A DNA stretch of 64,000 nucleotides from positions 9,627,855 through 9,691,854 of the forward strand of contig OZ038455.1 in assembly GCA_964036195.1 (NCBI GenBank). Reading direction: 5' to 3'. A program made the position numbers and the translations under genes. Of the stretch, positions 3,693 to 59,200 are shown piece after piece (positions within the stretch are counted from its first letter, which is position 1; each line of letters begins with the position of its first letter). This DNA comes from Sphaerolaimus hirsutus. Lineage: Eukaryota > Nematoda > Chromadorea > Monhysterida > Sphaerolaimidae. The notes under the pieces were generated by a model. It was not told where the DNA came from. It saw nothing but the letters and a program-made list of their open reading frames with translations, and searched no databases.

Positions 3693-6600
3693 GCAACCTT
3701 GTAGGGTGCCGCGTATCTGGCATACGGGTCGCCTTTTTTGCCGTAATAAGTCTGATCCCAGTACGGCAAGAAGTCCTTGCGACTTTCCAAATCGAAAAAC
3801 AAACGTCTCGAAGCTGTCAGCATGCGCTCCATCTGGTTTGATAATGGATAGCGTTGAAGAAACTTCCGGGAGGTTTATGTTTGAAAAATATCAGAAATCA
3901 TAAAAATATAAGTTTTTATATTTTCGCAGGATTTTTCAGGGGTATTTAGTTTATTCTATTTTCGCCTTGAGAGATTTCTTAAAAAACAGCAGAAAACATT
4001 TAAAAAATTTTTCTGATTAACATTTATTTATATTTTTCGGTAATTATATTCTCTAAAAATCATCAATGTGTCAATGCTAACAACGGAGCAGCGTGAAATT
4101 TACCTATTAGTACACCGATATCGGCAATAAAAGTGAAATAAAAAACAATACCCACTGGAAAATTCTTTTCCTCGCTCAAAAACGCGTCCACCGCGGAAAA
4201 CGGCGCCGGAGCGCTTTCGCTTTGTTTCCGCGCAAGTGTGTGAACCAGATTCAAGTTGGCATCGTTCAAACAAGTGACTGCCGTATTGCCATCGGCCACG
4301 CCTGAATTTAACGAAAGGGATATTAAACAGAGGGAATGTCACTTTTTCGAAAACCTCAAGACTTCTCATGTAAAAGCGCCAGTTTAGTTCAATTGGAACA
4401 TTACATCGTATTTTTGACTAATCGAATATCGACGTTTTTATCGAGCGTCGATATCGAAAATTTTGAAAAATATCGATTATCGATATCGAAGTAATATCGT
4501 CCCAACGTCATATCTACTCAGCACACCACCAACCATCAACCGAACACAATTTCTCCAGTAAATTCTGAATGATGTGCGCCACAGTAGAAATCGCCTCATG
4601 GACGTTTTTCACCCAGTCGAGTAATTCCCGCACGGGTTGACATTCCTCCGCGCGCAGTTGATTTTGGCCCGGTAGCGTGTCGCTTCTTGGAGATTGGGGC
4701 GATTTTGCGTCGCTGCTCTCAGCTTTCGAACGCTCTGAGATTATGAAAGTGAGTGCAGTCAATTTGTGGAGCGCATTAAAGAAATTTCAAAAAGTACCGT
4801 ATTGCACCGAATAATACCCCCTTGAATTGACCCCCCTAGAAATACCCACAGGTCTGAGCGACCTGAGGTAAAATTAACCTCCCCTCAATTAACCAAATAC
4901 CCCCCTTCTTGAATGATGCATCATGTATGCAATGCATATGATGCATTAATTGCTGCTTAATTGCATTGCAGCTACACACATCCTTTACCAGTTTTTACCA
5001 GTTTTGGGTGTGTAAAAGCCTATCCTTGACTATAAACCCTCACGAAAAGTTACCCCCCCCCCCCGACTAAACCCCATGAAAGTTTGCTGGCGAAATGAAA
5101 ACCCCCTGGGGCTTTTTCGAGGAAATACGGTAAAACATGACACGCGAGGCTAGGGTTACACCACTAGCCTCACGTGCCATATGAGAACATGTCACACAAG
5201 AACTCACTATCATACACACTGCACCAGTGCTTGTATTCATGATTGGCTGCGCTACGGCAGTTCACATATTCGCTGAGTGCAATTGCCAGTTCCATTTGAC
5301 TCGACTCAAAAAGCGAATCGTGGCGAGCGCATCCGGCTTTTTTGCATGCAGATTCCTCGGAGGATTGGTTGAAAGACGATGTCACTGTAAGAGAAAATTA
5401 GCTGATTTTATTTGTACCTGGGTTTGTTCCAGAATTATTGAGACACTTCAATTTCTGGACTGCTGGAAAACAAAATTTGAACACATTATTCTATCACAAA
5501 CTGCTATTTGCTTTCAAAACAAATTACGACCATAATTTTTACAAAACAGGAGACGTGTTGACTTTTCATTCAAAACTTCCAAGTAAACGCAAATGAATAA
5601 TGCAAACCGCACCCTGGCCAACAGCCTCCGCCACGGCAGCCAAAAAGCCATTCTCCACTCTGCTAAAAGAGTTATTCGCCTTGCCAACATCTGCCACCTG
5701 CACCCCTGTGCTGCGTTTACTGGGGCAGTCCCAGACCCTGTAAAATGCCCTGTAAAATGACAAATGTCAGGCAAAGTGTCAATTTTCTACCTTTCAAAAG
5801 TTTTCCTTAAATGCTCTGAAAAGAGCAAAATTCGTTTGCCATTTTTCAGGGCATTTTACGGGGTCTGGGAGTGGCACCTGGAGTCACTCGCAGCCGGGGT
5901 ATTTTTTATCGCCCGCATGTACTGTTGGTGGAATTCCAACGGTCGTGTCAAATGTTCGTAGACGATCATCTGCGGGCATCTTGTTTGTTTGTTGAAGAAT
6001 GAACAAGGCTAATTTTGAAGGTGAAACACTATAAAAACGTACGGAAATTAGCGATTTTTAGTAAAAATTGGGGCAAAATTTCTTTAAAATCGCTCCAGAT
6101 AGGTAGATAGCTGGCCGATTGGGGGGGGGGGGGGGTTAGGGGATAGTAGCCCGAAATTTTGCCTCCGGGATAGATAGATAGCTGGCGGATTTGGGGGGAG
6201 GGGGGGGTAACCCCTCCAGCAACCCCCCTACTAAACCCCTGCGGTACGGTACGGTAAAGTCTGCCACCGTACCCAGGGGGTTTGTGTTTCAGTGTTCAAA
6301 TTTTGAGGGGAGGGGGTATTTCGAGGGGAGACTTATTCGAGGGAGGTTATTATTAGCAATAAATACTTCATGTACATCCGACATCGCATACATTTCAAAC
6401 GGGGGTATCTCGAGGAAATACGGTAAATCGTCCCATAAAAGAATGACCCGTTATGGCACAAAAAAAAGTACCCTCAAAACAGACCAGTTGACTGCGGTCG
6501 ACCCTGGGCAAGTACACGTGCACGACGGCGGCGCAAATCGCCAGCGCGTGCACCAACTGCTGCACGTTCCACGCGACCAACTCCGCTAGAGTGTGTCTGA

Positions 6601-9600
6601 AACAAATTGAGATGTGAAATGCAAAAGTCACGTTGTTAATGTAAATTTGTTATCACGGTTATCACACATATATCGCTGAATTTGTTTTATTTGTATTCAG
6701 AAAAATTCGCAACAGTTTGAATTTCATAATTCACTTACTTCGCTACAGGATTCAGTTTGAAGCCCTGATCGAAATCCAAAGCCTTCAACGCCCCATCGTT
6801 CGCGAGATACGTTTTGTCCTCAAATTTTTCTGCGTCACAGTGAACACCTGTAAACGTTGATGATTTTTTTCAGAAATTGGGTACAGATGTACAGAGCTTC
6901 CCAATAAATAAATCTAAATCGGTTGACAAAGCATCAATCCTACGTTCCGCAATTTGACAAGTATTTAAAAAATCAATTTTAAAATGAGAAATAAAAAGGT
7001 TAAAGAGAAGCAAAAACATAAAATAGAAGTAAAATTGGAAGTACAAATTCAAAAAAAAACAAGTACATTTAGAAGTTAAAAGCAAATTTTTTTAACTTTT
7101 ATGTTAACTTTTTACTTCTCACTTTTAAATTGTCTTTTTTACTTCTCAACTTGCAGAATTGGCACCAGGGTTGCGCTGCTAATGGATTCAACTCTTTCTA
7201 GTTTCCGCTGAAAAACGACCCACCAGGATGTTGCTCGTCGTCGGACCACTCGATGTCGACAATGTCGTCGTTGAGCACGTCGTCGCAGGTGCCGTGCGAG
7301 CACGCGCAGTCGGAATTGTGCGCGTCCGCGTTCGAACAGTTCTCGTTGTCGTCGTAGCACGTGTAGCGCCACTGCGCACACAGAGGGTGAGAGTTGTAGA
7401 GATTATTGGGTTCGTACTTCTCTTCCTATCGACAGTCGTGTGGTTTTCGTGAAAGGGGATTTATTTCAAATTTTCAAAAACGCAATTAGCGTTCTAAATA
7501 TCTCGGGAGAGTTATATTTACAAAAATATAAGATATTTAAAAAATATATTTTTTTGTTCTTTCACCAGGTTTTTCCAGATAGATGTAGTGTTTCTTTTCT
7601 TCTCTGAGATGAAAATATGAAAAAATCGTTCATATATGTTTTCTCTGCGTTTTTCCCCAAAGAGATTAAAATTGTATTTTATTTTTTGACAGATTATATT
7701 TAATTATATTTTCTGAAAAACACACATGTATGGAACGCTAATCAGAATTTCCGATACTCCATAATCGACAAGTAATGATATCATTATGAACCATCTTGAG
7801 AGTGGAATTAGTGAGAGTTTTGACACGCCTTATTTTCTTGGTTTATCATCTCAAAATTGAAAAAAGAAAACTGCAAACTTCAACGAATGCCAAAAATACG
7901 TACATTAGTGCGCGACTTTTTCAAGTGCCACGGCCAGTGCAGCGTATCTTCCTGGGAGCCGTAAAATCGGACAAGTACGCGGCCATCGGAGACTTTCTTG
8001 CGTATATAGCCCACGTTGTATTTCTGAAAGATGCACGCAAAGGAAATATTTGAGTGTTGTTACTTTTTATTCACGTCACTGAAAGAGAGACTGACAGCAA
8101 ACATTAGGTTTGGGACGATAGATTGTATAGAATAGCGAAAATCAATATATTTAGAAATATCGATAAAAAATTTGAAAAATTATCGATAATCGAATATCGA
8201 CTATTTTCGAATACCGAATATCAGATATCGATCTTTTTTTCATTCTCACCTTATCACACTATCAATATCGAGTTTCAGAAAAATATCGAATATCGATATC
8301 GAAAACAGCGTCACGAATGCCAGGGCTTAAGCTTGAAAAACAACAACAAACCCAAACAAAANNNNNNNNNNNNNNNNNNNNNNNNNNNNNNNNNNNNNNN
8401 NNNNNNNNNNNNNNNNNNNNNNNNNNNNNNNNNNNNNNNNNNNNNNNNNNNNNNNNNNNNNNNNNNNNNNNNNNNNNNNNNNNNNNNNNNNNNNNNNNNN
8501 NNNNNNNNNNNNNNNNNNNNNNNNNNNNNNNNNNNNNNNNNNNNNNNNNNNNNNNNNNNNNGGGGGGGGGGGGGTCTTTGGGGGTAGTAGCCAAAAATTT
8601 TGCCTCGGGATAGACAGATAGCTGAGCGGCCCTCCCGGGATAGATAGATAGCTGGCCGATTTGGGGGGGGGGGCAGCCCCCCCCCCCCCCCCAGCCCCCC
8701 CTAGGAGACCCCTGCCAGGGGCCTCTAATTGGAAGTGCAGGGGTACCCATGAAATAACTCAGCTATCTATGTGTGAGTAGGGTTCAAAACGATATGACTT
8801 TTCGATATCGATATTCGATATTCGATATTTTTTTCAAAATTTTCTCGATATTCGATATTCGATATTCAATATTTTTTTCTGAAACTCGATATTCGCTATC
8901 GATACGATATGGAACCTCGATTATCGATATTCGATATTCGATATTGAAAAATGGTCGATATTCGATATTCGATATCGATACGATATGGAACCTCGATATC
9001 GATATTCGATATTCGATATTGAAAAATGGTCGATATTCGATATTCGATATTTTCGATATTCGATATTGCGATATGCTTTTGGTAAAGCAAGGCATATTTC
9101 AAGTGGCATATTGTATTTTCATGTGGTTGCACACATGTTTAATCATCTCTTTACTGAAATTTGAATGGTACAAGTGATTTTAACAAGCTTTACATCACTC
9201 AATGGTAGAAAATAGAAGAAAAACATGATGAATCAAAGTGTATCAGACAAATAACAATTGGTAGATATTACAGTTCATCCTAACCTAATTGCTTAAGGGC
9301 ATGTTGCAAAAAAAAGTATATCAGCATTTTCCGGCTTCAAATTTAGCACTCCAACAACAATGACATTATAAATACTGTACTTTTACTCATCAAATACAAT
9401 ACTATAAGCACATCAGATCAACCATAAACATCTCAAAATGAAAATGAAAAGTAAATTTGGGGACACAATACAGGTTCGATATATCGAAAAAAATGGTCGA
9501 TATTCGATATTTTTTCAAAATTTTCGATATCGATATTCGATATTCGATATTTTTTCAAAATTTTCGATATTGATATTCAATATTCGATATTAAAAAATGG

Positions 9601-12600: not shown

Positions 12601-15600
12601 TCATCGCGGGATGTCTGCATAGTTAAAAATGAATAACTGACATTGTTGCGAATCTCATAAATATGTATTTATACACGTGCCAGTCCGGCACCCTATAAAA
12701 TGCCCCGTAGAATGTCAAATGTCATGCAAAATGTCAAAAGTCATGTAAAATGCCCTGTAGAATAGCAGTCCGATTGCCATTTCACAGGTCATTTTACATG
12801 ATTTTTGACTCTTTGCACGACATTTTACATTTTACAGGATCTGAGAGTGGCACCAAGAGCAACGATTTCTGTGGCGACTGACATTCAGATAAGTGGGCGT
12901 GGCATCTTCCAGGAAGGACCGCTCCCACGACTCGCCCAGGGCCTCGGTGCCCAACACGATTCTGCGATTGCACCCATACACATTGTGATTTTCAGAAACT
13001 TGTAAAAAGCTTTTTACGCATTTGAGTTTACTAGAATGGGCCTGCGCAGACTAGTTTTCACACGAAATTTCGAAAACTCATAAATGAGCTTTGAACGTGT
13101 CTGAGTTTTCCACATTTTTTCAATCTCCGTCAACTGTAGTTGACGGCCACCTCATTGTAGAAAACTCAAATACGCTCTAAACTGATTTGTGAGTTTTCGA
13201 AATTTCGTGTGAAAACTAGTGTGCGCAGGCACAATGGGTCATTTTAAATATCTGCCGAATGTATTTGTTAAACAATCAATAGTTTTTTTAAAATTATTAT
13301 TCGACTATTGAGAAATAAAATAAAAATTTTAAATGACCCAAAAGAGTGTATAGCGTAGGGATAGGGATAGAAAAAATGTTTTAACGACATCGTTTAAAAA
13401 ACAACAATTTTTAAATAAAACTGTTTTTAAAGTTCCCAAATACGAAAGATAATAAAAGAAAAGTATACAAAGAAAGTTCATCGACATCCACAAAAACCAA
13501 TTAGCACAACATTAACAAAACCGCAGGCAACTCACTGGCAGTGCTTTCTATCGAGCAGCGAACAAGTGAGGGTGCACCTCTGTCCCGTGGGTTGACCCAA
13601 CCAACCCGTTTCACTGATGTAATAGGCATCGTCCAAAAGCTGTGCATGGAAAATGGTCAGTTTTATAAATATGTATTTAAAATATTTCTGTTGAGTGTCT
13701 TGAAGACGTTTTTGTCAAATTCAAAGTTTAAGCTAGTTATAACTATGTATATTGCTAATTATATTAGGCAGGAAGAATACAAACAAATCAACAGAAAACC
13801 CCATCGAGTTGTTCTTAAATGGCCGATTTTGAGAAAATAATTAAACGTAATCTCAGAAAATCTGTCTAGTTAAATCTCTGAAGTCTCATATCTGAAAAAT
13901 CCTGGAAAAATATAAATAAAATTAAATCCTAAATTTTACAATATAAACCTCCCAGAGGATTTTAGAACGCTAAGCGGAGCATACTTGGCCAGAACTTTTG
14001 TAAATCAGTACAAATCAAAGTCAAACACTTAAAAAACAAGCGTGAACCCACCTCAATGGGTCTCATGGAATCAACATCAGCGAGACCGCACAGGACCCAT
14101 TGACAGCTGATGCCACTCTCGGACCCTGTCAAACTGCCTGTAAAATGTTTAATGTCAAGCAAACTGTCAAATGTCATGTAAAATAGCCATTTTCCAGGGA
14201 ATTTTACATGACTATTAACACTTTACATGACATTTCACATTTCACATGTCATTTTACAGGATCCGGGACTGGCACCTGGGCAGCACGAAGGCATCCAGCA
14301 AGTGCTCGGTGCCCTTGACGATGCCCAGCCTCGCTTTGGCGTTGTTCACGTCCGCTTTGTGCACCACGCTCAGCCCGTAGTCGAATGGTTGCGGGGGAAG
14401 CGGGTAAGACACGGTTATCTGCGGGTTTAGTGGCCAGTCGTGTTTGGGTAGAGACATTCTCGCGAGGGCAATTGACCAGACTTTTATTACGACGTAACTT
14501 TCAATTAAAATAATGACCAATGTCGAACTACTTGTTTTTACCGCACTTTTTGTTCATTTACTGTCAAACACAGCTTACGCAGTTTCTTGCAAAATAAACA
14601 TTTTATGACAATATTAAGTGAAAAAAATGTTCTAATTTTATTTTGTCAGTTATCTAAAAATCTCATTGTATTTCTCCTATCATGACATTTGGTACGTCAC
14701 CATTCAACTCCCATCACCGTTCTTAATAATATGCAAACTCCTAAAAAAATCCACTCAAGCTAATCCCAATCATCTCAGTCCACACACCTCACTCCCATCA
14801 CAAAGCCGCATGGGTCCCGCGGAAGGCTGCCAAACCACCGCGGGAACGGTGCCCCCTTCACACTTGGCCGCTGTTGGCACGCGGCCAACTCTCTCAGCTT
14901 CCCCACCGGTTTCAGTGGTCGCACCGGTGACGTCGGTGGCGATTTGTTGCATTTGCGACAGAATGTAGTTCAGACTGGCGGCGGTCATCGATGAGGTGCT
15001 GGCCTGCGAAGTTGGAATAGAGTTCGAGCTGAGAATGGCTCAATTTTCACAGAATATTGCAGTTTGCGATGGTTTTTACAGATTTTCGAATTTTTCTGTA
15101 CATGCACTTAGCGTTGGAAAAAACGTTTTTTAACGCCATGTTTTTTAAAAAAAACATGCTACATCGGCCAACCATGCTACATGCACTTGAATAAATATTG
15201 TTGCAAAAATCAAGTCAAGTGCGTTGTGAAACGACAAATGACAGGCAATGTTTCAGACAATGTCAGGTGAACTGGCGTATAAAAACACAGACAAAAATAA
15301 GACTCGGATAAAGAAATAATTAAAGAAATATAACTACAGCGCGCGCAGATATTTTGCTTTGCATGCAGCGGTCGGCGCAAGCTCCGTCCACTTTCGTGTA
15401 AATGCCCACTAGCGCTAACCCCAAAAATCACGAACGTTCCGTCAGGCTCGCCTTTTTGTGTGTGAGCTCAAAAACGACAGTACAATTTCTACGATTTTTT
15501 ACATTTGACAGAGAACGCACATATTTTTAGCCCTCTGTGCGTACGCTCGACCCAGAATTCATATTTTTAAGCGCGTGGGGGGCCTCGAAGATTCGTAAAA

Positions 15601-17400
15601 ATCACAAGTTTGTATAGGGAAAACGACACGCCCGGCCGAGCAAAATTCACGTGCAGTTTTAAGATGTAGGCTGGCGCGAGTGCGCGGAGTAACAGTGGCA
15701 CATGGCTCGGTGCCAATACGCACAGGAATTTCTGCGCGCACTGTAGTTGCGAACATAAAAACCTTGAATAAAACACAACATAAAACATGAATGCAAAAAA
15801 GCTAATACAATACTAACTTGAAAAGACTGCAGGAACTCATCGAAATCATCCTCGTTATCCAATTCGGACAGATACACATCGCAGCTGCGCGACAAAACTT
15901 TTGATGGTAGGATCAGCATAATCATATGATACCGTATCGTATCGAGTATAGCTCCCCATTTTCGCTTAAAATCGCTAACTTTCATTTTTAGTAAGCTTTT
16001 TGACCGTTTTCACTTTGCCTATACTTTTTTAGCGATTTTTGATCTTTTCTGCCTTCTACACCATCAAAACCAGTATTTTGAACATCCAACAAACTCATTG
16101 AACAAAGTCGACGGCGTGGCGCAGCCGCAGAAATCGATTTTGCCGCCACCAGAGTCCTTCAGGGCGACTTTGGTCGGTTTCGAACAGTTTGCACAGACGG
16201 AAAATCGCCTGGCCACGCCGAGCCACGGCCAACTTTTGCTCGGATGTATCAGAACGTCATTGTCGCGGATTTGAGAGAACAACTTCACGCCGCTGCCTAG
16301 AATCGAGGGATGCTTTAGTGGGAGGAAAAATTTGTGAAAACATATTTGGGTACCACTTCCAGACCCTGTAAAATGTCAAGCGTCATGTAAAATGTCAAGC
16401 TTCGTGTAAAATGTCAAGCGTGATGTAAAATGGTAAATGTCATGTAAAATGGTAAATGTCATGTAAAATGGCAAACGTCATGTAAAATGGCAAACGTCAC
16501 GTAAAATGGCAAACGTCATGTAAAATGGCAAACGTGGCACACTAGTCTGACATTTAACCGGCACTTTGCACAACTTCTTACACTTTGCACAACTTCCTAC
16601 ACTTTGCAGACTTTACACTTTGGACATGTGACGACATTTTACAGGGTCCGTGAATGCTCCCGTATCGAATACTCACCCGACATTTGTGCGGACCGGCCGG
16701 ATTCGTTGATGACGATTCCTGAGTGGATGAAATGTGGAGGCCCTGGCGTTGCCATCACCGCAGTGCCAACACTATGAAATTCGTCACATTTAACACTATT
16801 TCATTAAAGTGTTGTGACTTGTGTCACCAAAGTGTCTACTTGGGTACCATGTGAATTGCAGTGGAGACAATTATGAAAATACGGAGTGCTTCTCTGCGTT
16901 AAGAATGGCCAGCTCTTTTTCAACCGCTTTTAAATGGTCCCGGCACCTTTTTAAAGAGTGTATTGAGTTTGAAATGGGTGAAATTCGAAATGTCTGGAAT
17001 CTTTTTTAAAGCAAGAGCAGAGCCGTTAAAAGTCGGGGGGTTTCCCATCCCTACCCAGCATTTTCAAAAATTACGATAACGTGCGCTCACAATGCACCAT
17101 CCGACTTTCTACTTTATGGAGAGAAACGCCGCCCACAAAAGCCAAAACGCAAGACGCCCGAATTTTATCACATTAGAGACAAAATTACACTAAACAAGCA
17201 AACCCCCCTGTAAAATCTACTCACAACGAACCAACCTTCAGTAGGAAGCACCAACGTTGCACCCATCAATCGGTAATTCACCAAAATCTAGCAGAAATCC
17301 CGCGCGCAGATCGGTCACCCGCTGCGGTGTCGCCAAATTTTCTTTTTCCGTCGTTGACTACACTTGTACCATAAGTTCGGAAAGCGTCCAGCGTGAAATC
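3693..17400 (-). CDS. Gene U: large unidentified multi-exon gene
   Basis: At least 20 exon-like segments follow one another on the minus strand, most with AG acceptors and GT donors. In transcript order, the clearer ones lie at about 17.28-17.40, 16.68-16.77, 16.08-16.31, 15.82-15.89, 14.80-15.00, 14.28-14.48, 14.05-14.11, 13.53-13.64, 12.85-12.99, 12.48-12.62, 11.70-12.03, 11.31-11.44, 11.05-11.18, 9.99-10.21, 7.92-8.04, 7.19-7.38, 6.74-6.85, 6.50-6.60, 5.88-5.98, 5.58-5.72, 5.18-5.39, 4.54-4.74, 4.16-4.30 and 3.69-3.84 kb. Visible motifs are a possible zinc-binding CANC..FCGC segment (16.1-16.3 kb), a Ser/Lys-rich acidic linker (11.7-12.0 kb), a domain with KKGDKVVLYV and DGRVLVRFYG joined across an intron (10.0 and 7.95 kb), and an acidic Cys-rich segment (7.2-7.4 kb). 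A giant scaffold or ubiquitin-ligase-type protein is possible, but I could not place the family. It could also be two genes. Neither the first nor the last exon is certain. Two introns are introner elements. Confidence 0.65.
4410..4506. mobile_element. CGATAT-core element, copy 2
   Basis: Imperfect TATCGAT repeats between ATCGAATATCGACG and AATATCGTCCCAACG. It lies in an intron of gene U. Confidence 0.6.
4795..5132. mobile_element. CCCCTCGAAATA-family element
   Basis: Ends are TACCGTATTGCACCGAATAA and TTTTCGAGGAAATACGGTA. It carries the same ATGATGCATTAATTGCTGC core segment as the copy at 0.5-0.9 kb. It is intronic in gene U. Confidence 0.75.
5720..5877 (-). mobile_element. Introner-like element forming a whole intron (gene U)
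   Basis: On the minus strand the upstream exon ends GACTCCAG and the element starts at once with GTGCCACTCCCAGACCCCGT. It ends GGGTCTGGGACTGCCCCAG, followed directly by exon sequence. The two ends are inverted repeats of each other and the interior carries AAAATGCCCTG/CAGGGCATTTT. Splicing it out joins AG+T into a serine codon and keeps the frame (ASDS-S-KRSTGV). The 158-base intron is therefore the element and nothing else. Confidence 0.85.
6085..6190. mobile_element. CTATCTATC/GGGGG-family element
   Basis: Carries GATAGGTAGATAGCTGGCCGAT, a long G run and AGTAGCCCGAAATTTTGCCTC. The same modules recur at 8.56, 10.47, 25.1 and 31.3 kb. Confidence 0.65.
6205..6424. mobile_element. CCCCTCGAAATA-family element (partial)
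   Basis: The right end reads GGTATCTCGAGGAAATACGGTA. The left end appears merged with the neighbouring poly-G element. Confidence 0.6.
8110..8310. mobile_element. CGATAT-core element, copy 3
   Basis: TTGGGACGATAGATTG starts a stretch of degenerate TCGATAT repeats, up to the edge of the assembly gap. It is intronic in gene U. Confidence 0.6.
8362..8561. other. Assembly gap of 200 N
   Basis: Unresolved bases between a CGATAT-core element and a poly-G element. Both flanks are low-complexity repeats, which probably caused the gap. The open frames that run through the N block are artefacts. Confidence 0.99.
8562..8775. mobile_element. CTATCTATC/GGGGG-family element
   Basis: Poly-G, then GGGTAGTAGCCAAAAATTTT, GATAGATAGATAGCTGGCCG, C runs and CCTAGGAGACCCCTG. 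The left end is lost in the assembly gap. Confidence 0.7.
8779..9077. mobile_element. CGATAT-core element, copy 4
   Basis: Starts TAGGGTTCAAAACGATATG and continues with tandem TTCGATATTCGATATTGAAAAATGG units. About a dozen near-identical units give open frames on both strands with repeating ISNIEYR-type sequence, which are not genes. Confidence 0.8.
9470..9641. mobile_element. CGATAT-core element, copy 5
   Basis: Begins AGGTTCGATATATCG and ends CGATATATCGTTTGAACCCTA, which are complementary ends around TCGATATTCGATATTTTTTC units. Confidence 0.75.
10465..10965. mobile_element. CTATCTATC/GGGGG-family element, longest copy
   Basis: Starts AATCAGGGGTCTCCTAGGGG and ends AAATCTTGGAGACCCCTGATG, so the ends are inverted (GGGGTCTCC/GGAGACCCC). 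The interior has GCTATCTATCTATCCCG, a TTTTGGCTACTACCCCC module and an AT-rich segment with TATATGCATG. This copy shows the full length of the family. Confidence 0.75.
12083..12473. mobile_element. GGTCCC-core element interrupted by a nested insertion
   Basis: Left end AGAGTTCAAACGGGACCACGG, right end GGTCCCGTTCGAACCCTAAT. The two halves of the GGTCCC core are separated by an AAGTGAAATGAG-type element at about 12115-12362. Confidence 0.7.
12115..12362. mobile_element. AAGTGAAATGAG-core element nested in a GGTCCC element
   Basis: Starts GGTGCCAATTCCGCAAATGG and consists of CATTTTACTTCTCACTTCTC variants. Close relatives lie at 23.8, 25.7 and 63.4 kb. Confidence 0.65.
12686..12851 (-). mobile_element. 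Introner-family element supplying a donor site (gene U)
   Basis: On the minus strand the exon ends CGTTGCTCTTG and the element starts with GTGCCACTCTCAGATCCTGT. The far end reads TATAGGGTGCCGGACTGGCAC. Here the acceptor is not at the element end but at TATGCAG near 12619, so the element gives only the 5' splice site. Confidence 0.6.
13033..13243. mobile_element. Inverted-repeat element with ACTAGTTTTCACACG ends
   Basis: GCCTGCGCAGACTAGTTTTC at the left is matched by GAAAACTAGTGTGCGCAGGC at the right. The inverted repeat extends through CACGAAATTTCGAAAACTCA. It is intronic in gene U. Confidence 0.8.
14107..14275 (-). mobile_element. Introner-like element forming a whole intron (gene U)
   Basis: Exon ..CTGCCCAG is followed by GTGCCAGTCCCGGATCCTGT. 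The element ends ACAGGGTCCGAGAGTGGCATCAG and exon CTGTCAATGGGTCCTG follows. Its interior repeats GACATTT and CATGTAAAATG motifs. The flanking exons encode a segment ending FVLPRCQ and a short exon reading WVLCGLADVDSMRPIE. The 169-base intron coincides with the element. Confidence 0.8.
16355..16655. mobile_element. Introner-family element with tandem TGTCAAACGTCATG core
   Basis: Ends are ACCACTTCCAGACCCTGT and TTTTACAGGGTCCGTGAATG. In between are about ten tandem units of the type ATGTAAAATGGCAAACGTC. It sits inside a larger intron of gene U and does not touch the splice sites. Confidence 0.7.
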
Positions 17401-53213: not shown

Positions 53214-56200
53214 TCAACTGATTTGTTCATTATTGGATGAGCATCTGTCAGTATCTTGCTTCAACTTGTTAGATACCCAGCCACTCAATTGATGTGCACT
53301 TATTAGAATTACTGGCAGAAACAGTAATGCATGCAGCAAGCCAAAGATAACCACCAAAATCACAGTTTTCACACATGTCTGCACAATATAAGTGTCCACA
53401 GTTATCAAAGTTGTGACTCCAAGCAAAGTTGACAATGCTGCCTGTGTAAGTGGTGTGCCAACATTCCCCAGACTGTGTGCTATTCTGTCATTGGCTGTCG
53501 GTTCACTGAAAGGTAGCTGTTGTATTTATTTGCCATGAAGTGATGATTAAAATGCACATTTGCGCAATGAATGAACCTTCTATCAATTGTTGGGCAGGAT
53601 ACAAAGGCATAAGTGACATGTGCTGCAAAGTCAACTGAGAAGCCAATGGACATTGCTATAGTGATCATGCTAATGCAGTCCAGATTTATGTTCCACCTGA
53701 AATAATATTACATTTAAAAAGATCTCTACTGGTCAAATAATTTCATGTAGTATATATCAGTTGAAAATGGGACTCACAATGTCATATATCCCACAACACC
53801 TAGATCAATTGACACAATTGTGAAAGCAATTGCCAGTGAACATATGGCCCTTGGAATCAGTACCAGTGATATAACTATCATACACACTGGGGTGACCAGA
53901 ATGGGTTAACTTGACTGAGTTAAAATGAAAATAAAGATTGAAAGCTGAGTGACCTACCCACAGCAATGGCCACGTTTTGCAGAGTCAGTGGTAAAATGAT
54001 TTCAAACTGGTCGGCCAGTGCAAACATGCTGCTGGACACGACAACTCCCCACCTGCATTGTGGTGATAATCATGTGAAATCACACAGCCACCAATCCCTT
54101 GTACATATTCCATCAGGGGGCACTCTCACCCCACACCCAACTGGTTGCCATTTTACAGGGCATTTTTCATGACATTTGACGTTTTACAGGGCATTTTATA
54201 GGGTCTGGGACTGGCACCAGGTTATACCATAAGCAACCAAAACCACACCTGTCATAATAGCTTTTGGCCAGTTCTCTCAAATACCTGGCTGCCTCCACTT
54301 TTTCATCGTTGTTTTCTATTGGTTTGAGCTGAATGGCAAACCTAAAGTTGGATATAGCTGACATGGTCGGCGTCCATTTGATGTCATAGGCATAAAAATC
54401 ATCAGTCAGTAAGAATGCTTTTAGATTGGTGTAAAATTCCTGCATGAATTTTGCTGTAATAGTATTGATTAATGGTTGAAGTGTGAATATTACTTTTCAA
54501 GTGTAGTTTCAAATTACCTGGGCATTCTTAAGAGGAAAGTCATACTTGACTGAAAATCCCAAATTATCAATATAGTTCTCAAATGCATTGAGCCACAATT
54601 CTGTTGTGTTAGATCCAATGCTATAAACAAAGAATTAGTGATCACAAATGCCATCTAATTTTGATTTTATAAATTAAACCTGTATGGAGTGCTTTCAAAT
54701 TGCGTGACCATTGCCCTAAAATCACTCCTTTCAGAGTTTATCCATAATGTGGGTGGTTTTTGCACAATTACATCCACTCGTGATCGTCCACTTTGTCCAA
54801 AATATTCTTCTCTGTATTTGTAGAACGTGTCAGCATTTGACCCGGAAATGAACACTTTTCTGAACTGAAATGTGGATCATATGAATAAAGTGCTGGAGAA
54901 TGAAACTGAATGGAAATACCGTATTTCTTCCAATAGAAGAGCGCCATTCTATTTTTCGTCAACTTTTTTACCTGCCGTTGTATGGAGGCTGCAATTCTAT
55001 TTTTTCACTATATTTTTTACGCATTTTTCGTTTGAAAGTGTGCTTTGAATGAAACATGAACATCATTTTAACATCAGTTCAAACAAAGCCAAATGTGAAA
55101 ACAACCCTGTATCACATTTCAAAACACTTTGGATCTTCTCACTATCCATTATTCTAAAATTTTCGTGTTTTGGCACACTTCCAACACAATTTCTACCTGC
55201 CGTTCTATAGGAGGTGCCATTCCGTTGAAGGCTGACATTCTATAGTTTTCGTGAGTGCCAAAACGTGCTGAACCCTGTCATTCTGTTGGAGGTGCCCTTC
55301 TATTTGGTAGAAATATAGTATCCGATTATAGAGTGCCAACCTCAAAACCTATCTTTAATCGCATTGCCCCATGAATAGCCACACCGCAGTAAGCACAGAA
55401 AAGCAGAAATGTTCCAGTTTTAACCAATCCATTGCACAGTATAGGAGCATAGTATCTGGCGAGAAAAACGCTGTATATTCCGCCATTTCTCATGGGATAT
55501 TTCGTCGTCTCTGGAGATTCACTTTTATGTTTAGGTAGTGCGATTATATTTGAAGTTGATTCACTGCCGTTCATGAAAACTTTGTTCATTTGTTTCAACT
55601 TCAATGTTTGACTTGGCTCTGAAGGACGATGAGTTCCCATATTGAATACAAAATTTATGAAGTTTGGGCTGTCTGGAATATTTTGGATAGGTGTAGGTAG
55701 GTGGCGAAACATCAATTTGTATACACAAAAATATTCAGAGGGAAATGTAAAACACTGACAATTGGCTGACAATAGGGTGACATACATTTGGTTTACAGTT
55801 GTCAGCTTATGTCAGCCATTGTTGGCGTATGTCAGCCAGCTGCAATCACATTAAAAAGAAGCAGTGCTGCTGTCTGCGAGCTGTCAGCATACTGACTGAG
55901 AATGCCTTGCATACAAGATAAATTGTCAGAGAGCTGCAGCATGCAGCCATTTTAGTTGTCAGTAAGCTGCCAGTCGGTTGAAATTTTTGTCAGTGAGCTG
56001 CTTTATTTTTAATGGTTTTCTAGCTCACTGTCAGCGGACTGCCAGCGTTGTATGTGTCCTCATTATAGGAATATTTTCCCTGCTGACCTTCACTTGCGGT
56101 GCTCTTTGTCCTAATCATCAATATGCAGTGTCTATTTGCCACCTCCAATCTTCCCTGATAAACGAGCACCGCAGCCAAAAAGCTCAGTGTGTAAAAATAA

Positions 56201-59200
56201 GTGACGATTATTGCCATTGCTGAATAGACACAAAAGTAGGATACTGCTGGCAGTGGGGCAAAAATGCCCACAGCAAAGCTGAGTGAATCTGTCAGCGTTG
56301 TTATAGTCACTGACACTGCCGCATGCTCCAATGTGTGTGCCATCCTAGGGGCAGTCCCAGACCCTGTAAAATGCCATGTAAAATGTCAAATGTCATGCAA
56401 GTGTCAAAAATCATGTAAAATGTCATGCAAAATGGCAACTCGGTTGCCATTTTGCAGAGCATTTTACTTAATTTTTGACACTTTGCATGACATTTGACAT
56501 TTTACAGGGCATTTTACTGGGTCTGGGACTGGCACCTGTCTTCAACGTGACATTTTCCCACTGCTTCACTGCTGCGCCATGCTCTGAGCAGCAGAAACAT
56601 GTCATCGATGCCGATGGCTGCACATTTTTATGTTGTTGGAATGGGCAAATTTGCATGCACAGAGAACACCAGAACGCTGACAGCTAGCTGACAAGCTGAC
56701 AACTACAAGTTTATGGTTGTCGACTAGCTGCAGTAGATTTCAGTGTTCAGTTTTGATTGTTGACTGTGTGTCTGCAACACACACACACTGCAAAATGCAC
56801 CAGTTTTCAAAGTTGTCAGCGGGTTGTCAGCAAACTAATTTTGGTGTTAATTGACTGGCACATTTTTTGACGCTTGGCAAGCCAGCTGTTAGCTTTTTGG
56901 CGTGGGTGATAATGATAGACATGACTTTGGCAGGTGTATTTTGACTCACAAAGGGCCAAAAATGGCATCACATTGACAATATCCGGGTAGGATGTTCCGC
57001 AGAGTACCAATGCTCCATTTGTGGTCAACACTGCTAGAACTGCTGCCATAACAGCGCAAATTGCAACCAGTGGTTTGCTAGAAAGAATCAGCTATTAAAT
57101 TAAACTACTGTTATTCTTGCTGCTTTAAATCACTCACCTTGTAGTGTAATCAATGCATGGAATTGACATATTTCCAAGCAACCACTTTCCACTTTTTTGT
57201 CTCTGTTCTGATCTTGTGGAAACATCACTGGCCTGGTCAGTGTCAGATGAAGTCATATCACTTTTCAGTGTGGTCATGCTGAAGGCACAGGTTGTTGCAA
57301 AGCCGACCAAAAGCAGGTAGCAGGTAATGAACCTACATATTTATGTTAGATGTGCGACTTGACATTTGGACCACACACACTAGTTGACATAGCAAATTTG
57401 TGTCAACTTAACTTCAACTAAATAACACAAAAAATTGTAGAAGCATCAGACACACACTAAACAGAAAAGATGAAAATGAGGTATTATATAAAATTAACCG
57501 GGTATGCTCTATCACATAGGAAAGTACATAATTAACCAAAATTTAGTTGAATTTTGTTGTCACAAATTTTGTTGTTAACTAGAGTGTGTAGACCCATTGT
57601 ACCAAACATTGGTTTAATCATCATTAACGTGACTCACTTTGGCATAACAGCTGCAGAATTCTTCTCAAGCTCCATTTCAGTGCTCAAAGAATGAAAATAA
57701 GCAAACTTCAAGTGTCTTGCAATTTTGGGCACAAACTTTTCAAACACCTCCCCCAAGGCCAGTTCCCACTCTGTACTTAGCTGCTTTTCCTCATCAGTGT
57801 CACTTTTCAATGGGAATGTAAGCAGCCAAGCTTTTGCAGTGAGCACAGTGCCAGTAGTCTGGGGGCAGTCCCAGAGCCTGTAAAGTGCCCTGTAAAATGT
57901 CAAATGTCATGCACAGTGTCAAAAGTCATGTAAAATGCCCTGGTCATTTTCCATGACTTTTGACACATTGCGTGACATTTGACATTTTACAGACATTTTA
58001 CGGTGTCTGGGACTGGCACCTGGTTCAGCGTGACCCCACCGAGCGAGGCTGCCAGATATGCCACGCCTGCGATCATCTCCGATCGAAAATAGGGGTATGT
58101 CAACTCGGAAGTCTATGATGAGAAAGTTTATCGTTTCACATTTCACCATTCTGAAAATAAATCAAATCTGGTGGATAGATTTACTCACGCCATGACCATC
58201 GATTACCATCTTTGATATGATACTGGCTTGATCATTGTCGAAACACCCGCGTCGCCACGGAATGCACACATTGCTGTTTGGCGAAAGGGACATGTAAATA
58301 CCTACATACATACTTATGAACACATTTACCAGAATAATTTCCCGCTTGAACAATTCCCCCTTCAAAAAAGTCCAACGAACAAAATTATTCGATCACCCGG
58401 GGGAATCATTCGATTAATTACGGTCTATAGATAGCAAAAACAAGACAATAAAATCCCCATACCTGTAAAATATTCTTCTCATTCGGATCAAGTCCCCGTC
58501 AACTTCTCGGTGTATCGCAGTCACATTTTTGAGGACAAAATTCAGCGCCGCTAGCAATTCGTAACAATGTGTCTCCCGTAAAATGTCGCCACCATCGTTA
58601 GCGACGGCCAAAATGTGGGCCCCCCTTCGCAGTTCTGAATCCTTGCCTACAGGTTTTTACAATGTGGAAATGTACAAATACCGTATTTCCTCGAATTACC
58701 GCCCTTGAATTAACCCCCCTCGAAATTCCACCAGGTTTTTTCGAGCTGGGAAAAAAATAACCCCCCCCCCTCGAAATACCCCTCGTCTGGAAAAAGGTAC
58801 ATCATGCATATAAGCTACATGATGTATTTTTTGATGTAAATTTGCATCGCAGCGACACATAGACTAGTGTATGTGTACCTATGTATCTACCTTGATATGT
58901 ATGGAAATATCGTGTGAAGTCACCTTTATCACTGTTTTGGGTACGTCAAAGCGCATTCTTTACTACCACCCTTTACGAAAATTTTTGGCGAAAAAATAAC
59001 CCCCCCCCCCTCCAATAAGCCCCCCTCCCTCGAAATACCCCACTCAAAATTTCCACTCTGGAAAAATAAACCCCCTGGGGGTATTTCGAGGAAATACGGT
59101 AGGTATATTTTTATCATATTGTTAACGGTTGACTGTGGAGGAGGAAATATGATTTCCTCGCCATGCTTTTGTAATAAAAAAACAGCCGCATTCATTTGAT

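Follow-up and report, generated by a model that had tools for sequence, protein, structure and literature searches.

Can a mobile element be a complete intron from the moment it enters an exon, and which 3′ splice sites may such an intron use? These questions are raised by a short inverted-repeat element at positions 5720–5877, minus strand, of a 64,000-nucleotide stretch of contig OZ038455.1 from the nematode Sphaerolaimus hirsutus (hereafter the window). Introners, to which we compare it, are among the leading explanations of why introns are sometimes gained in bursts, and they have been reported in few animals. From the sequence evidence presented below, the element most likely belongs to an introner family that stems from a non-autonomous DNA transposon and makes both GT-AG and GT-TG introns (probability about 0.8).

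Results

The element at 5720–5877

On the minus strand the element, recognized by its sequence and inverted repeat, is laid out as CTCCAG/GTGCCACTCCC ... GGGACTGCCCCAG/TAAACG, where slashes mark the boundaries, GTGCCACTCCC starts at 5877 and GGGACTGCCCCAG ends at 5720. Its coordinates and ends in the original prediction proved exact when checked against the sequence, and the inverted repeat described there consists of two 39-bp arms (5726–5764 and 5835–5873) with 90% complementarity. An exonic CAG at 5878–5880 has its partner in the 3′ copy of the duplication at 5720–5722. The uninterrupted frame expected after removal was also recovered: excision leaves a single frame open over 94 codons (43+51), whereas retention brings a stop inside the element in each of the three frames. 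Placement within a coding gene agrees with flanks that are open in one frame, but the host, called gene U, had no match in Pfam or PDB. Since the gene around a second copy at 14107 also lacks a Pfam or PDB match, the coding status of neither is supported by homology, and for the first element the support as an intron comes from its sibling copies.

A genomic family that duplicates CWG

In the 348-Mb assembly (762 contigs), the exact donor-end motif was found 1,633 times (806+827), and the reversed pattern, used as a control, 0 times. We sampled 106 loci (L001–L106) through similarity to the element at 5720–5877, an exact donor end, or as regions around places so listed. In the window together with the first 78 loci, terminal inverted repeat (TIR) ends could be paired at 103 places, overlaps being kept; the other 28 loci gave 26 pairs. 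The ends were asymmetric, with GTGC on one side and GGGG on the other, in 70 of the 103 and 20 of the 26 pairs; the donor end had been selected for in most sampled loci and the opposite end had not. Copies with exactly one end beginning in GT were oriented by that end, and those with GT at both ends or at neither were excluded; this left 112 oriented copies, in which asymmetry is thus by construction. The 87 that come from the 103 pairs are unique by sequence, and the near-duplicate pairs L030/L032, L045/L047 and L060/L061 remain among the 112. Most sampled copies measure about 140–200 bp and follow the consensus form GTGCCAGTCCCAGACCC ... GGGTCTGGGACTGCCCC. No copy with GGGG at both ends was present among the 129 pairs, in a sampling poorly suited to reveal one; the GT end may have been derived from a GGGG end through two changes.

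Identical 3-bp flanks accompany 70 of the 112 oriented copies, and in 68 of these the triplet is CWG, namely CAG (36) or CTG (32); CAT and CGG occur once each. CAG and CTG are mutual reverse complements, so the target is blind to orientation. Insertion into an AG/G proto-splice site, as originally proposed, was rejected, since the sample contains about as many CTG duplications as CAG ones. The related statement that the preceding exon ends in AG holds where CAG was hit, but exonic CTG hits are at least as common in the sample. Likewise, the GT donor does lie in the element as described, but the AG ascribed to its other end is the 3′ copy of the duplication. Evidence from far outside the window supports the broader idea, in which a single mobile family gave rise to complete introns through its copies.

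Exonic copies and their predicted exact removal

Joined peptides, obtained by removing the element and one copy of the duplication, were searched against Pfam and PDB. A match spanned the junction for 19 of 43 sense peptides, a set chosen in part by eye for its coding appearance, and for 0 of 20 antisense peptides. The 19 junctions lie in 17 genes, and the similarity of the introns reaches both splice boundaries. The hosts are dynein heavy chain, nicotinic receptor (two elements), DOMON, Oscp1, cyclin Y, BCKDHA (two elements), ALKBH7, nucleobase transporter, G protein-coupled receptor (GPCR), ATRX, SPT16, sugar transporter, CNOT9, calpain, M13 peptidase, cation ATPase and Patched. The names CNOT9, BCKDHA, ALKBH7, ATRX and nicotinic acetylcholine receptor (nAChR) alpha-7 were assigned through PDB; some other names, among them cyclin Y and SPT16, are what we take the matched Pfam family to mean. 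Patched, the alpha-7-like nicotinic receptor, the cation ATPase and calpain are in keeping with an animal genome. As to the count, L061 duplicates L060 and the two were counted once, and L087, which Pfam matched on just one side, was left out. ALKBH7, whose Pfam match begins beyond the junction, was included on its PDB match. The DOMON match, at 31.2 bits, is just under the curated cut-off of 32.7.

PDB alignments were free of gaps at the junction for four CTG copies (CNOT9, BCKDHA, ALKBH7 and nAChR alpha-7) and for a CGG copy in ATRX. No residue was gained or lost in these five, so that at the sequence level the mRNA would be unchanged by the insertion. Retention, by comparison, would bring a stop into the frame in 18 cases and, in the remaining one of the 19, CNOT9, would shift the frame. 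Two hosts carry introner copies close together, 139 bp apart in the nicotinic receptor gene (L005) and about 600 bp apart in the BCKDHA gene (L066), a dense intron gain.

One alternative is an ordinary miniature inverted-repeat transposable element that landed in pre-existing introns. Some copies probably have such an origin, for example L075, beside a GDT1 domain. This antisense copy was considered as an exonic counter-example and rejected, as it apparently sits in an ordinary intron, CTAG/GTAATA .. TTTACAG/G (read by eye), and the GDT1 match (residues 101–150) lies entirely on one side of the junction at residue 75. As an account of the family, however, insertion into old introns is barely credible, given that conserved domains continue over the element site in 19 cases and that no residue changes in the five alignments.

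A comparison that makes no use of homology gave the same orientation. The better-scoring open frame was the sense one in 48 copies and the antisense one in 12, with 60 of the 87 unique copies informative (p = 1.6e-6), and the ratio was 32:8, 20:4 and 12:2 at stricter thresholds. Insertion length modulo 3 was uninformative. The excess of sense copies points to excision at the RNA level that depends on the GT end, which is on the 5′ side in all 19 supported junctions. It is this bias that bears on removal without the spliceosome, either somatically from DNA, in the manner of the internal eliminated sequences of ciliates, or from RNA by a hairpin-guided process of the kind suggested for certain unusual introns. 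The element at 5720–5877, the one copy that was folded, does form a strong RNA hairpin (−68.2 kcal/mol, z = −9.8) that leaves both element ends unpaired; the supported junctions also appear indifferent to the acceptor dinucleotide, and hairpin introners are described from Amoebophrya (PMC7789003). Yet hairpin and TIRs are nearly alike on both strands, and neither the 48:12 ratio nor the constant 5′ position of GT would be expected from them. We regard non-spliceosomal removal as very unlikely.

AG and putative TG and GG acceptors

When the 19 junctions are sorted by the exonic and the intronic copy of the duplication, five are CAG/CAG, one CAG/TAG, two CTG/CAG, ten CTG/CTG and one CGG/CGG. With exact removal the acceptor at the exon edge would be AG in 8 of 19, TG in 10 and GG in 1, and 11 junctions, among them ones in CNOT9, BCKDHA and ATRX genes, would depart from the GT-AG rule. 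The GG case (L097, G000:C1:11095690-11096520) has its CGG duplication in an ATRX-like helicase domain, where exact removal would call for a GT-GG intron. Around the ends of these 11 elements we scanned for GT within −45 to +60 nt of the element start and for AG within −60 to +45 nt of the exact acceptor, and in none did a GT-AG pair achieve exact removal. It seems on balance the better guess, from these junctions, that in this animal TG, and GG in at least one case, serves the spliceosome as a productive 3′ splice site, and does so in a large class of young introns that a single transposon has created; whether CAG or CTG was hit would set GT-AG or GT-TG, and TG would later turn into AG.

Several observations pull against the main reading, an introner family that makes GT-AG and GT-TG introns. 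One search of the sampled loci yielded no convincing empty paralogous site, the matches being read as repeats. The 19:0 contrast between sense and antisense junctions overstates the bias because sense peptides were chosen partly by eye. With at least 30 open codons required on both sides, 77 sense and 60 antisense frames of the 112 copies qualified, a poor separation of strands for which shadow frames from GC-rich exons account. An antisense copy, L062, may lie within coding sequence: the frame looks coding (it has a CPYCH motif) and has no Pfam match, and splicing there would depend on a GG donor or on a GT situated 12 nt upstream. Wherever vertebrate TG acceptors are reported in the consulted part of the source, an AG close by is the alternative (PMC2374985). 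Finally, 10 of the 11 non-AG cases have inexact GT-AG pairs close to the element ends that keep the frame and avoid stops, and in two the cost is low: ALKBH7 would lose 3 nt and calpain would keep 9 nt.

These pairs are what would be expected if the family were an introner family whose CTG copies are spliced imprecisely through nearby GT-AG sites, with residues gained or lost and TG unused. Six of the 11 cases have a pair that uses the element's own GT, and an AG lies 19 nt upstream of the acceptor (TTTTACAG) in 30 of the 32 CTG copies, as it does in 33 of the 36 CAG copies and in 104 of all 112. However, BCKDHA has no frame-keeping pair at all, and in the eight cases other than ALKBH7 and calpain at least 15 nt would be lost or kept, including five CNOT9 residues that exactly match the solved protein. 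Use of the AG 19 nt upstream would keep 19 nt and, with the element's own GT as donor, shift the frame. Imprecise splicing thus appears an unlikely explanation.

Age and selection of CTG copies

Another way to dispense with TG acceptors would be that only CAG copies are spliced, the exonic CTG copies being null or polymorphic alleles that stay unspliced and happened to be assembled. TG alone has not been reported as a vertebrate acceptor in what we consulted of the relevant work (PMC2374985), which favors this view. The CTG copies, however, are neither rarer in conserved exons nor less diverged than the CAG copies: where both duplication copies are alike, conserved exons hold 10 CTG and 5 CAG insertions, and the median divergence from the consensus, a rough measure of age only, is 7.5% for CTG (n = 21) and 7.3% for CAG (n = 25). 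CNOT9 and similar hosts of CTG copies are presumably broadly essential genes, which also weighs against null alleles.

A further comparison is offered by L060 and L061, neighboring GPCR gene copies that have one CTG insertion in common. Since the duplication, 3 of 546 exonic sites have changed compared with 12 of 171 in the element (p = 6e-6), and changes amount to 74 of 376 sites in the next intron and 41 of 1,132 in the 5′ non-coding part. The exons around the common CTG copy have stayed conserved, and selection seems to have kept the GPCR protein intact across the insertion. Together with the equal divergence and the frequency in conserved exons, this speaks against dead alleles, and we consider that explanation improbable.

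Unequal duplications are distributed unevenly. A 5′ CTG with a 3′ CAG was found in nine copies and the reverse in two (one-sided p = 0.03), the genes for cyclin Y and SPT16 being examples in which the exon copy is CTG and the intron copy CAG. This 9:2 ratio, small as the numbers are, fits a change of TG acceptors into AG over time.

Other copies in the window

When up to three mismatches are allowed, the window contains 12 occurrences of the TIR motif, where shuffling predicts 0.08. The element at 5720–5877 and three further copies, all read on the minus strand, run from CAG/GTGCCA.. to ..AG, and the common layout expected of these four was confirmed, except that the 3′ end of the copy at 14107–14275 (..GAGAGTGGCATCAG) has diverged. 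This copy has a CAG duplication and a host frame open over 140 codons. The copy at 56345–56535 lies within a Patched sterol-sensing domain, with CAG as the exonic duplication (56536–56538) and TAG as the 3′ copy (56345–56347). It separates an exon at 56536–56617, whose start was set by eye from a TGTGCAG acceptor, from a coding stretch at 56023–56344 that runs to the next stop (3′ limit approximate). Once it is removed, a single Pfam match covers profile positions 27–155 of 156 with 147 bits, compared with 72.6 and 42.2 bits for the two separate pieces that matched. A protein search with the Patched-like sequence returned no match, and scans of viral_contigs and genome_contigs for exact patterns gave 0 hits. 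Further upstream in the same Patched-like gene, also on the minus strand, a copy at 57859–58019 has a CAG duplication and precedes an exon at 57638–57858 that ends in an ordinary GTGAGT donor (read by eye); its removal gives an open frame with no domain match of its own. Of these four introns only the one at 56345–56535, which splits the Patched domain, has homology support; the gene at 14107 has no recognized homologue.

A related copy at 12677–12853 (strand undefined), with GTGCCA.. at both ends, no matching duplication and no gene seen around it, is not an intron case, and a lone TIR end at 54201–54217 (minus strand) is apparently a truncated copy. At 16349–16660 a TIR-like end leads into tandem repeats of the element's internal unit (TGTAAAATGGCAAACGTCA...); this may be a copy that has expanded or decayed. 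The window also contains a G-rich repeat stretch at 58676–58804, which matches L065 and has related stretches in L009 and L005 and in which no relation to the introners was seen, and a run of 200 N at 8362–8561 (an assembly gap or masked stretch).

Discussion

A simple mechanism would connect these observations. The element inserts with a 3-bp duplication, mostly CWG. It brings its own GT at the 5′ side, while the acceptor position, after a C-rich end, is occupied by the duplication's 3′ copy, so that removal of the element with one copy restores the exon exactly. The spliceosome would carry out this removal with the element's GT as donor and the final two bases of the duplication as acceptor; a CAG duplication would then give a GT-AG intron and a CTG duplication a GT-TG intron. 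The G-rich TIR would supply, on the sense strand, the C-rich stretch before the acceptor. The AG located 19 nt upstream possibly has its role in the first step, as has been suggested for vertebrate TG-AG tandems (PMC2374985). Copies inserted into exons in antisense would have no GT donor and would probably be lost for that reason, and TG acceptors would tend to mature into AG.

An abundant family with such a simple insertion rule provides natural matched pairs, that is, the same intron with an AG or a TG acceptor. They would allow a test, within one genome, of how far an animal spliceosome needs AG and of how new introns improve, and also of whether surveys restricted to annotated GT-AG introns miss many introns of this kind. 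If our reading is true, the maturation of a new intron could be read from the two copies of its duplication.

DNA-transposon introners are reportedly the subject of Huff et al. in 2016, Henriet et al. in 2019 are said to have treated Fritillaria, and a later paper by Gozashti is said to concern the horizontal transfer of introners. In the collection of papers that was searched, none combines introner, CAG and target site duplication, and a single paper mentions both introner and Harbinger. The following comparisons draw on the consulted parts of the cited papers. The introners surveyed by Gozashti et al. (2022, PMC9860276) resemble the S. hirsutus family in being many near-identical introns in unrelated genes, with TIRs and short duplications, in taking one splice site from the element and the other from the duplication, and in leaving mRNA length mostly unchanged by splicing. 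Those parts do not describe a single family in which a CWG duplication gives rise to two types of acceptor, and as the survey was built on annotated introns, TG acceptors would tend to be missed. Among animals and land plants that survey found introners in only two groups, both of them animals (PMC9860276).

As for its origin, the CWG target matches that of the NuwaI group of PHIS (PIF/Harbinger-like) transposons, which are reported from animals with CWG duplications and TIRs usually beginning in GGG (PMC4482050). One end of our element is GGGGCAG, whereas the other is GTGCC (GTGCCAG in most pairs) and supplies the donor. Membership would require a DDE transposase and a Myb/SANT protein between the same TIRs.

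Non-canonical splice sites also have parallels. In vertebrate TG-AG tandems an AG lies within 28 nt of the TG, comparable to the AG 19 nt upstream here, but TG is always an alternative to AG there (PMC2374985), and in our case joining the element's GT to that AG would shift the frame. Eurytemora affinis, with GA and GG donors, is likewise an animal in which many young introns break a splice-site rule, although it is the donor that is relaxed there and the acceptor here (PMC5714493). A parallel by description is provided by the Micromonas introner classes IE-B (25 members) and IE-D (6), whose introns have GT-TG splice sites (PMC3879977). Micromonas is a green alga, however, and the S. hirsutus family has AG and TG copies side by side, decided by the CWG that was hit. 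Introners with TIRs and duplications, and GT-TG introners, are thus already known.
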